Source: Tenrec ecaudatus (lineage: Eukaryota > Chordata > Mammalia > Afrosoricida > Tenrecidae). Taken from it: DNA of 64,000 bases. This document shows positions 35,806-54,477 of this stretch, piece after piece. The translations under genes were made by a program, and so were the position numbers. Under the pieces are notes generated by a model. The model made no database searches. It saw only the letters and a list, made by a program, of their open reading frames with translations, and was not told the origin of the DNA. The DNA lies in the NCBI RefSeq assembly GCF_050624435.1, contig NC_134537.1:11404584-11468583 (forward strand). Reading direction: 5' to 3'. Positions within the stretch are counted from its first letter, which is position 1, and every line of letters starts with the position of its first letter.

Positions 35806-35904
35806 TCTGTGTCAACTATACAGGCAGGAAGCGAACTATGATGGCAATCACAGCAGGATATCTCCAAAGATATCTCTGTACTCCTTCACTCACTCATTCA
35901 CTCA

Positions 35905-36085
35905 CTCACTGCCACTGAGTCAGAATAGCGACCCTGTAGAACAGAGTAGAACTACCTCTATGGGGTTCCTAAATATTTATGGGAGTAGAAACCCCCATAA
36001 CATAACACCCAACAGCAAAACTAGTTGCCTGTATGCTATAGAGTAGAATTCTTCCACAATGTTTCTTGGCTGTAATCTTTACCCT
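35905..36085 (-). repeat. AfroSINE fragments, antisense
   Basis: CACTGCCACTGAGTCAGAAT, GAACAGAGTAGAACTACCTC at 35910-35960, and a second piece (ATAGAGTAGAATTC... TGGCTGTAATCTTTACC) at 36038-36083. Confidence 0.65.
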
Positions 36086-37735: not shown

Positions 37736-38260
37736 GACACAATTGGTGACATGGAACGATTGGGGCAGTGGCTAGAGGAATTGTGGAGACACAGAAATGA
37801 AGGGGTTGGAGACAGAAACCTTAGACAACTCAGGCTAGAAATCTGAGTATGAATGGGGAGACAGATAAGATCATGGTTACTAAGGGCTCAATAGAAAGTA
37901 AATGTCTAGAAAAGAATTATGGCAACATATGTACAAATATGCTCAATACAATTGATGTATGGATTGTTATAAGAGCTGTAAGAGCCCCCAATAAAATTAT
38001 CCTTTAATTAAAAAAAAGATCACGGGGAAATGTTGATTGGAAGAGAAAAAGATCTTTAAACAGATTCAGAGAGAGAAGAAACAATGTTCTTGAGTAGATA
38101 TGAGGAGGAGGATTATAAAGCCTATGTAGAATGATTGGCCTTTGTTAAAAGAGGGAAAACAGTTGGATGAAGATCTCATCTAAGATTCGTTTTCCTTGTG
38201 AAATTAGAGGCAAGGTTATTAACTAGGAGTGAGAGAGTTAGAGCTTGAGAATAGAATGGA
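37736..38260 (-). mobile_element. Possible L2-like old repeat, interrupted
   Basis: Text such as GATTGGCCTTTGTTAAAAGAG resembles L2 internal sequence. It appears to resume at 39153 to about 39900 after the CTCA array. The naming is tentative. An L1 tail interrupts it at 37877. Confidence 0.3.
37877..38015 (+). mobile_element. 5'-truncated L1 tail
   Basis: Ends with CCCCCAATAAAATTATCC and an A-rich tail. The direct repeats AAGATCATGG (37867-37876) and AAGATCACGG (38016-38025) flank it. Confidence 0.8.
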
Positions 38261-39152
38261 GACTCGCTCTCTCACTCACTCTCTCACTCACTCACTCTCT
38301 CACTCAGTCTCTCACTCACTCACTCTCTCACTCAGTCACCCTCTCTCTCTCTCTCTCACTCACTCACTCACTCAGTCACCCTCTCTCTCTCTCTCTCACT
38401 CACTCACTCACTCACCCTCTCTCACTCACTCTCTCACTCAGTCACCCTCTCTCTCTCTCTCTCACTCACTCACTCAGTCACCCTCTCTCTCTCTCACTCA
38501 CTCACTCACTCTCTCACACACTCTCTCACTCACTCACACTCACTCACTCTCTCACTCAGTCACCCTCTCTCTCACTCTCTCACTCACCCTATCTCACTCT
38601 CTCACTCACTCACTAACTCACTTTCTCACTCACTCACACTCACTCACTCACTCACTCTCTCACTCACTCACTGACTCATATTCACTCACTGACTCATACT
38701 CACTCAGTCACTGACTCACACTCACTCTCTCACTCACTCACTCTCTCTCTCACCCTCTCTCACTCACTCACACTCACTCACTCACTCACTCTCTCACTCA
38801 CTCACTGACTCACATTCACTCACTGACTCATACTCACTCAGTCACTGACTCACACTCACTCTCTCACTCACTCACTCTCTCTCTCACCCTCTCTCACTCA
38901 CTCACACTCACTCACTCACTCACTCTCTCACTCACTCACTGACTCACATTCACTCACTGACTCATACTCACTCAGTCACTGACTCACACTCACTCTCTCA
39001 CTCACTCACTCTCTCACCCTCTCTCTCTCCCTCTCTCACTCACTCACTCTCTCACTCACCCTCTCTCACTCACCCTCTCTCACTCACTCTCTCTCACTCA
39101 CCCTCTCTCACTCACCCTCTCTCACTCACTCACTCACTCACAAAAAAAAAAA
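38261..39152. repeat. CTCA/CTCT array with A-tail and flanking direct repeats
   Basis: About 890 bases made of CTCACT, CTCTCT and related units, with interspersed CAGT, CACC and GACTCATA variants. A 134 bp higher-order unit repeats about three times at 38611-39010 (GACTCATACT at 38691, 38825 and 38959). The array ends in eleven A. The 14 bp GAGAATAGAATGGA precedes it at 38247-38260 and follows it at 39153-39166, as in a retrotransposed insert. The long open frame it contains is a by-product of the 4/6 bp repeat. Confidence 0.9.
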
Positions 39153-39936
39153 GAGAATAGAATGGATTTGAAATAGATTTTGCAGGCATGTGGGAAGTGA
39201 GCTTCCAGGTGGCACTGAGGACCTAGTTGGAGGCATTGAGTATGATGTTGTAATTTTGCCAATCTGCCCCATGGGGCTTTGTTCCAGTCATTCTCAATGG
39301 CCTTGATGCACGTATGGAGAAGGCAAATAATTAGGCTCCGCTGGATTGGGATGTGCCAGAGAATTTGTAAACGAATGGCGGAAATGATGGAACATAGAAG
39401 CTAACAGAATAGGAGAAAATGGAAGACTAAAGAGCATGATGGAAGGGTAGAAGAATGGCCTCGGAGATGAATGGAGATAAAAATGAAGAGGCATGTCAAT
39501 TGGAGAGTAGCTTCTTGCTTAACAACAACAAATAAATGTTTGAAAGCAAATGAGATGCTAGACAGCTGTACTATTTGATTCAGAGATGGAATGGTTCTAA
39601 TCTTGGGGGGGGGAAAGTCCAGAGCATGATAACTGATGGAAGATACAAAAAGAATAATGCACTTGGAGTTGTGAATCGATCATTCACATAGGCATTAAAG
39701 TCATCCAAGTTGATGGATAGAGTTAACTGAAGAAGGAATCAGGATCCAGGTATTAAAACCATCAGTGAAGGAAGAAGAGTGACTGAGAGGTCTGGGGAAG
39801 ACATCCACAAAGAAACAAAAACAAGATTTTAAAAGTAGAAATTTAGTGTAAAGAGTAGAAATAGAAAGTGGAAGGGTGGTGGCTCCAAATCAGAACATGA
39901 ACAAGGAGGAAGGCACTAACCAGTTCTGTGCCACCT
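39153..39936. other. Old repeat-like or unique sequence
   Basis: AT-rich, with a poly-G run near 39605. It may continue the old element interrupted by the CTCA array. No gene. Confidence 0.35.
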
Positions 39937-43108: not shown

Positions 43109-44219
43109 GCATCTGTAGATGGATGGAATCATAAAACTTGATAGAGCATCTGTAGATGGATGGAATCATAAAACTTGATAGAGCATCTGTAGATGGATGG
43201 AATCATAAAACTTGATAGAGCATCTGTAGATGGATGGTGTCATAAAACTTGATAGAGCATCTGTAGATGGATGGAATCATAAAACTTGATAGAGCATCTG
43301 TAGATGGATGGTATCATAAAACTTGATAGAGCATCTGTAGATGGATGGAATCATAAAACTTGATAGAGCATCTGTAGATGGATGGAATCATAAAACTTGA
43401 TAGAGCATCTGTAGATGGATGGTGTCATAAAACTTGATAGAACATCTGTAGATGGATGGAATCATAAAACTTGATAGAGCATCTGTAGATGGATGGTATC
43501 ATAAAACTTGATAGAGCATCTGTAGATGGATGGAATCATAAAACTTGATAGAGCATCTGTAGATGGATGGAATCATAAAACTTGATAGAGCATCTGTAGA
43601 TGGATGGTGTCATAAAACTTGATAGAGCATCTGTAGATGGATGGTATCATAAAACTTGATAGAGCATCTGTAGATGGATGGTATCATAAAACTTGATAGA
43701 GCATCTGTAGATGGATGGTATCATAAAACTTGATAGAGCATCTGTAGATGGATGGTATCATAAAACTTGATAGAGCATCTGTAGATGGATGGAATCATAA
43801 AACTTGATAGAGCATCTGTAGATGGATGGAATCATAAAACTTGATAGAGCATCTGTAGATGGATGGTATCATAAAACTTGATAGAGCATCTGTAGATGGA
43901 TGGAATCATAAAACTTGATAGAGCATCTGTAGATGGATGGTATCATAAAACTTGATAGAGCATCTGTAGATGGATGGTATCATAAAACTTGATAGAGCAT
44001 CTGTAGATGGATGGTATCATAAAACTTGATAGAGCATCTGTAGATGGATGGTATCATAAAACTTCATAGAGCATCTGTAGATGGATGGAATCATAAAACT
44101 TGATAGAGCATCTGTAGATGGATGGTATCATAAAACTTGATAGAGCATCTGTAGATGGATGGTATCATAAAACTTGATAGAGCATCTGTAGATGGATGGT
44201 ATCATAAAACTTGATAGAG
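43109..44219. repeat. 37 bp minisatellite, 30 copies
   Basis: Unit of 37 bases running from GCATCTGTAGATGG to AACTTGATAGA, about 30.0 copies. Nearly all variation is at one dinucleotide: GGAATC, GGTATC or GGTGTC. The order by copy is A A A G A T A A G A T A A G T T T T A A T A T T T T A T T T (A=GGAATC, T=GGTATC, G=GGTGTC). The block G-A-T-A-A occurs twice in tandem (copies 4-8 and 9-13). Other changes are rare (AACATC in copy 10, CTTCAT in copy 26). Such uniformity implies recent expansion. Confidence 0.98.
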
Positions 44220-45812: not shown

Positions 45813-46134
<322 letters not shown>

Positions 46135-51335: not shown

Positions 51336-51347
51336 AGACAGTACACG

Positions 51348-51742
51348 GGTGGATGATACCTTCAGGACCAAGGGTGTGAGGGGCGATGCTGGGAGAGTGG
51401 AGGGCGAGTGGGTTGGAAAGGGGGAACTGATTACAAGGACCCACATGTGACCTCCTTCCTGGGAGAGTGACGGCAGGGAAGGGGAAGAAGGGAGACTCCG
51501 GATAGGGCAAGATATGACAAAATAACGATGTATAAATTACCAAGGGCCCATGAGGGAGGGGGGAGCGGGGAGAGAGGGAAAAAAAAAAGAGGACCTGATG
51601 CAAAGGGCTTAAGTGGAGAGCAAATGCTTTGAGAATGATTGGGGCAGGGAATGTATGGATGTGCTTTATACAATTGATGTCTGTATATGTATGGATTGTG
51701 ATAAGAGTTGTATGAGCCCCTAATAAATTGTTTTTAAAAAAA
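51348..51742 (+). mobile_element. 5'-truncated L1 with perfect target-site duplication
   Basis: 395 bases of L1 3' end finishing in CCCCTAATAAATTGTTTTTA and an A run. AGACAGTACACG occurs at 51336-51347 and 51743-51754. The perfect repeat suggests a fairly recent insertion. Confidence 0.95.
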
Positions 51743-51929
51743 AGACAGTACACGTCACCCACCCATAAAAAAATCAATAGGCATACAGTCCACTTTTCTT
51801 TCTGAATTCTACCATTCATTAACCACATAATCACGGGTTCGTTTTCTGACTCTTAATGCTCTTGTCTATATAATGTACAATGTCCTCCACCTCACAGATT
51901 TTGTCGAAAAGCTTTGTTTTAAAAATAAT

Positions 51930-54360: not shown

Positions 54361-54378
54361 ATCCTCTCTCTCTCTCTC

Positions 54379-54477
<99 letters not shown>
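54361..54477. repeat. (CT)n(CA)n compound microsatellite
   Basis: About 37 CT units followed by about 18 CA units. Confidence 0.97.

Follow-up and report, generated by a model that had tools for sequence, protein, structure and literature searches.

What places an almost pure simple-repeat array between two identical 14-bp words, with a run of eleven A at its 3' end? The question is raised by a locus in the window, the 64,000-nucleotide stretch of Tenrec ecaudatus DNA analysed here (assembly GCF_050624435.1, contig NC_134537.1). We read the array as a member of a non-autonomous retroposon family that is dispersed in the genome and consists, over its whole body, of irregular CTCA/CTCT simple repeat, and consider this very likely (probability about 0.93). 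An L1-type family resembling short interspersed elements (SINEs) is indicated by genome counts, target-site duplications, T|A/G insertion sites, a G start, junction alignments and irregular array sequence shared between loci.

Structure of the window copy

The window copy (locus L024) lies on the plus strand and reads, 5' to 3', TTAGAGCTT, GAGAATAGAATGGA, an array running from GACTCGCTCTCTCACTC to CACTCACTCAC, A11, GAGAATAGAATGGA and TTTGAAAT. The target-site duplication GAGAATAGAATGGA was located by direct reading and by a match search of the window; its 5' copy (38247..38260) follows immediately upon TT and its 3' copy lies at 39153..39166. Between them are the retroposon body, an 881-bp CTCA/CTCT simple-repeat array with no non-repeat part (38261..39141), and the A-tail A11 (39142..39152), together an insert of 892 bp; CTCA/CTCT alone fills the space between duplication and A-tail. 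The array opens with GACTCGCTC and begins with the family 5' end GACTC (38261..38265), G being the first inserted base. Its units are nearly all CTCA/CTCT with few others, and G makes up 20 of the 892 bases. The 60 bases preceding the A-tail contain neither AATAAA nor ATTAAA. The preliminary description of this DNA had reported a CTCA/CTCT block of about 890 bp ending in eleven A, with identical 14-bp brackets and TT ahead of the 5' junction; block and brackets proved exact on direct reading, which also showed the TT.

Could an ordinary microsatellite have grown in place here, between chance 14-mers and beside a chance A-run? Microsatellites do expand, and two identical 134-bp tandem units (38737..39004) form an exact internal duplication of this array, which is recent. 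Against such growth, local composition gives a chance of only about 4e-8 for an exact match of 14 bases in a single register, and with up to two mismatches allowed GAGAATAGAATGGA has no further match in the window beyond its two flanking copies. In the animal's own 3.9-Gb genome the 14-mer occurs 54 times and the reversed word 38 times. From these figures we reject a chance repeat as the source of the brackets. A scan of both window strands for an A-run of at least 7 followed by a word of at least 10 that recurs within 3 kb upstream returned three places: the window copy, a match of low complexity and, at 51336-51754, an L1-like piece.

A-tailed CTCA arrays across the genome

The array end CACTCACTCAC joined to A8 had 25 exact matches in the genome, which gave the first sample, and the pattern read backward had none. 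The control with the other-strand unit, GTGAGTGAGTGA-A8 (GTGA-A8), matched twice (reversed, once) and that with another tetranucleotide, ATCCATCCATC-A8 (ATCC-A8), once (reversed, never); a general tendency of tetranucleotide arrays to end in A-runs was thus not seen. Inspected by eye, the three control loci from these searches lacked both a noteworthy array and any evident repeat in their flanks. Eight matches of pure (CT)n-A were retrieved, and among the seven inspected only L121 resembled a family copy. A second sample was drawn by the 21-mer GACTCACTCTCTCACTCACTC, which had 86 genome matches as against 44 for its reversed form.

An A-tail was scored as an A-run of at least 5 within 8 bases, or of at least 6 within 14 bases, of the array end. 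By this rule 63 of 79 arrays examined carry one, 24 of those 63 having been chosen for A8; among arrays not chosen for an A-tail the fraction is 39/55. Two of the 79 have (CA)n instead, and 14 have neither: three L055 stretches, L060, L061, L062, L067, L094, L100, the second L070x stretch, L109x, L053, L068 and L079, the last three with tails that are A-rich though short or interrupted. Arrays cut at the 5' end of the retrieved piece were mostly outside this count; in 19 such arrays that were scored in other counts, an A-rich run is visible by eye near the end.

Array length bears on the possibility that a conventional SINE or processed transcript was inserted first and its body later lost or overgrown by a CT-rich part. 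Lengths do change: complete A-tailed arrays span 30 to 2570 bp (n=62), and the longest copy seen, L070 together with L112 (G000:C139, minus strand), is a 6.1-kb CTCA array with a (CA)n tail and, by eye, a flanking repeat around AATCTCAAGTTT. No non-repeat body common to copies was seen among the arrays inspected, however, even where copies are short and their duplications intact (L022, 30 bp; L023, 76 bp; L018, 86 bp), and we regard a lost body as very improbable. Short interruptions occur in single copies, such as a T/C run within L013. Two origins had been offered in the preliminary description: insertion of a CTCA-rich transcript, which the lack of a shared body favours, and later expansion of a small, partly CT-rich retroposon, which finds no support.

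The family probably numbers several hundred copies, a rough figure lying between two estimates. The degenerate 3' end CTCWCTCWCTCWM-A6 has 170 genome matches (27 reversed), 68 of the 100 listed are by eye not pure CT, and 9 of 61 arrays match this end, which leads to about 800 copies with no background subtracted. Alternatively, four loci shared by hand count between the 25 CACTCACTCAC-A8 loci and about 29 second-sample family starts give about 150-200. At L101, a family copy of 70 bp is present twice together with its duplication, 594 bp apart (108-772 of that locus); this pair is a local tandem duplication of the element plus its flanks.

Target-site duplications and insertion sites

For a fair test of flanking repeats we used 41 arrays whose 5' end was irrelevant to their choice, the window copy included: the 25 CACTCACTCAC-A8 arrays (L011 read as L042) and 16 of 22 complete arrays with the internal 21-mer. 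Direct repeats with a score of at least 9, mismatches allowed, flank 36 of the 41 arrays, as against 197 of 1640 mismatched flank pairs (12%). When the repeat had to adjoin the array (word end within 6 bases) the counts were 33/41 and 115/1640; at a score of at least 12 they were 26/41 and 36/1640, and at 14 or more, 18/41 and 7/1640. A preliminary count took in 73 complete arrays irrespective of kind and found an exact adjoining repeat of at least 9 in 46 and of at least 12 in 31, where 2000 mismatched flank pairs gave 63 and 10; those 73 include non-family arrays, two false L055 repeats within repeat sequence and the L101 local duplicate. A target-site duplication of about 7-20 bp and a 3' A-tail, as expected of an L1-mobilised non-autonomous retroposon, are thus both present.

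In the 36 arrays that reach score 9, T stands immediately ahead of the duplication in 20, where about 28% is expected from the window rate before AA, and duplication bases +1 to +4 are A or G in 35, 34, 36 and 33 of the 36. The insertion sites are T|A/G-rich, as for the L1 endonuclease, and resemble TT|AAAA. The L1 site is described in PMC3649969 as a degenerate TTTT/A.

Paralogous empty sites were sought by joining the flanks of 57 elements without the insert, keeping one copy of the duplication, and comparing the result with the window and the retrieved loci. Host-repeat relatives align across the junction for 16 of the 57, and by eye about eight cross it with a single duplicated word (L014, L019, L025, L033, L037, L038, L042 and L103). 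The joined flanks of the window copy, searched in the genome, matched only its own two flanks and no empty site. The preliminary description had taken the locus for a retrotransposed insertion and proposed a genome search for further A-tailed CTCA arrays with flanking repeats, the lack of any second example being taken to speak against it. That outcome did not occur, and the window copy is no isolated case: other CTCA arrays have an A-tail and direct repeats, several with paralogous empty sites, and the recurrent flanking repeats, A-tails, L1-type sites and empty sites all support retrotransposition.

A defined 5' end

The same 36 elements begin with G in 23 cases, A in 9, T in 2 and C in 2, and the first three inserted bases are GAC in 18. 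G content is 2.2% in 25 first-sample arrays, against which the excess of G-first elements has a binomial probability of 1e-29. In starts such as GACTAATTC, GACCACTC and GCTCACTC the leading G is more constant than the bases that follow. The family therefore has a defined 5' end with G preferred as the first base, and insertion was precise, with duplications, an A-tail, T|A/G-rich sites and a preferred first base.

The heptamer TGACTCA, which we take to be an AP-1 site, occurs nine times in the window array (38261-39141) and at 7.6 per kb in first-sample arrays; it may be no more than CTCACTCA with one base changed.

Copying between dispersed loci

Plain local alignment scores between arrays were useless as a measure owing to low complexity. 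Shared sequence was instead scored as information-weighted exact matches, the background being a fifth-order model built on the arrays. L025 and L027 have in common an irregular array stretch of 99 identical bases, worth 75.6 bits where three simulations reached 29.5 at most. They lie on different contigs with different flanks, the shared stretch ends no more than 4 bases from both 3' ends, and L025 has a 16-bp duplication. Within the last 500 array bases, 10 pairs of arrays share at least 25 bits, 6 of them at a matching distance from the 3' end; five simulations gave 0-4 such pairs, none aligned. Judged by these matches, irregular array sequence has evidently been copied between places rather than grown in parallel.

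For L009 and L033 (40.5 bits) the alignment spans the array and A10 and then continues through GAGAT(A/C)ATAAAT, with 11 of 12 bases identical. This last segment is the duplicated target DNA of L009, and in L033 it precedes that element's own duplication, AAATCTGCCATCA. Transcription of L009 probably ran on beyond its A-tail, and L033 arose from that transcript, a parent and offspring with 3' transduction; the parentage is probable rather than proven, as it rests on one pair and 11/12 bases.

For the family, growth in place is contradicted by the same design in 36/41 arrays with unselected 5' ends, by the paralogous empty sites and by the irregular sequence common to dispersed copies; as an explanation of the window array its probability is close to nil.

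Points against a retroposon family

Several observations weigh against our reading. CTCA arrays also occur as AfroSINE-like tails (L055, L062, L067) and as plain repeats (L060, L061, L094, L100), and L055, L060, L061, L062 and L067, which lack an A-run, were excluded from the 41-array test beforehand, as was the CA-tailed L070x. Within that test a score-9 repeat is absent in five arrays (L015, L027, L073x, L109x, L108), and A-rich flanks raise chance matches, 12% of mismatched pairs reaching score 9. The A-tail partly forces A at the first bases of the duplication; we therefore place weight on T at -1 and on the paralogous sites. The repeat of L027 is only 7 bp, below the cut-off. At 18 bits or more, 116 pairs of arrays share sequence as against 65-80 in simulations, so that below 25 bits the excess is only moderate. 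The 3' junction is variable, the end CTCWCTCWCTCWM-A6 occurring in 9 of the 61 arrays taken without 3' selection, and the polyadenylation signal A[AT]TAAA was found in the last 60 array bases of none of 67 family arrays. Finally, ATCC-A8 is a weaker control, as its count depends on how common ATCC arrays are.

Comparison with known retroposons

The array might also be the expanded 3' tail of an RTE-mobilised AfroSINE in minus orientation, truncated to its GTGA tail, with the A-tail incidental. At 35880-36060 on the minus strand the window holds an element that we take from its motif to be AfroSINE-like; its (AGTG)n tail reads CTCA on the plus strand, and when 61 bp of the element were searched against the window no further copy came up. 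AfroSINE-like elements are in keeping with an afrotherian source. At L055, L062 and L067, too, arrays several hundred bp long adjoin AfroSINE-like sequence, but these have no end A-run and no adjoining repeat of more than 5 bases on the CTCA strand, whereas family copies on that strand show an A-tail, an L1-like site and a G start. GTGA-A8 has only its two genome matches, and no AfroSINE body was seen inside the duplications among the arrays inspected. The likeness to AfroSINEs lies in a tail that holds the CTCA unit on the other strand, while the family is without head or body and an A-tail replaces the GTGA tail. We reject an AfroSINE tail, highly unlikely as it is, as the origin of the insertion; this rejection does not extend to the ancestral source of the repeat, and the CTCA repeat itself may originally have come from an AfroSINE-like tail. 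AfroSINEs are listed as RTE partners in PMC3747384 and PMC5322556. Neither a tRNA head nor an RTE-like 3' part was seen inside the duplications.

SVA and LAVA, variable-number-tandem-repeat-composite retroposons of hominoids, are non-autonomous like the present family. According to PMC10681720, SVA contains a variable-length C/T simple repeat, (CCCTCT)n, together with three further parts; PMC7353768 reports its mobilisation by L1 in trans. The present family, in contrast, is simple repeat alone, with the unit CTCA/CTCT. Carnivore tRNA SINEs have a (CT)n tract before the A-tail and insert in the L1 manner. The family shares with them the pyrimidine tract followed by an A-tail but has no tRNA head that we could see, and tRNA and Rfam searches of the window returned no match.

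Transcripts and pseudogenes processed by L1 show a duplication, an A-tail and a T|A-rich site. Unlike these, the family has no polyadenylation signal and no recognised gene, and it has many copies, some sharing irregular sequence. Box B of the RNA polymerase III promoter needs more G than the arrays offer. The strict definition of a SINE does not apply, since no tRNA, 7SL or 5S head is seen and arrays of 2.5% G leave hardly any room for an internal polymerase III promoter; by analogy, the family would nonetheless work like an L1-dependent SINE. Retroposons that spread simple repeats are described in PMC2887409, which presents microsatellite families of Lepidoptera borne by RTE. There, according to that source, the repeat is a short RTE 3' untranslated region, whereas in the present family it makes up the body, and the hallmarks point to L1 rather than RTE. 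In the open-access literature, with Repbase and Dfam outside the scope, we found no report of such a family.

Proposed mechanism

We propose that an RNA would start at G(A)CUC, span the array and end in or read through the A-tract. Target-primed reverse transcription of this RNA at a T|A/G-rich L1-type nick would then leave a duplication (14 bp in the window copy) and an A-tail. To judge by site and tail, L1 is the presumed machine; what we take to be 3' ends of L1 type are found repeatedly in the window, and one of them has a duplication of its own. The A-tail was apparently inherited from the source in some lineages at least, as suggested by the nearly coinciding ends of L025/L027 and L009/L033. 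Growth of arrays after insertion is likely, and later changes of length may come about by tandem duplication, with the 134-bp duplication of the window array as an example.

More tentatively, and with rather less than even confidence, we suggest that the repeat may be its own promoter. Capped transcripts would start inside arrays at the A of pyrimidine-C-A-CTC, a start that we take to be initiator-like, and reverse transcription up to the cap would add an untemplated G, which would explain the frequent G start of a nearly G-free element. L009 has C where L033 has G, in favour of such a start, but the G of L033 could be part of its duplication. When starts were compared with array interiors, for 11 of 25 one internal match elsewhere stood out as the best, and the base ahead of it was C or T in 9 cases and G in 2. 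This comparison only leans toward a cap-derived G, because throughout most of an array ACT has C before it anyway (G precedes 105 of 1769 ACT in first-sample arrays) and because the starts of L022, L026 and L027 have internal relatives that do carry G. In an L1 copy, an untemplated guanine before a 5' transduction has been read in PMC6425141 as a sign of a capped template.

Other features of the window

The L1-like piece at 51336-51754 is a 395-bp, 5'-truncated 3' end with a 12-bp duplication, AGACAGTACACG. A 37-bp minisatellite of 30 copies with 97% match occupies 43109-44219, and compound microsatellites, (TC)n(TA)n(TG)n and (CT)n(CA)n, lie at 46010-46132 and 54364-54476.

Significance

A retroposon family of this kind can hide among microsatellites, because repeat annotation would probably file its copies as (CTCA)n. 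With no structured or gene-derived head, it tests how little an RNA needs for uptake by L1, perhaps an A-tail alone. If the repeat does act as its own promoter, the copies would be self-propagating microsatellites, any of them able to seed others, as L009 seemingly did L033. Beside slippage, the family adds another way in which long microsatellites can originate, and its copies are insertion markers for this animal group.
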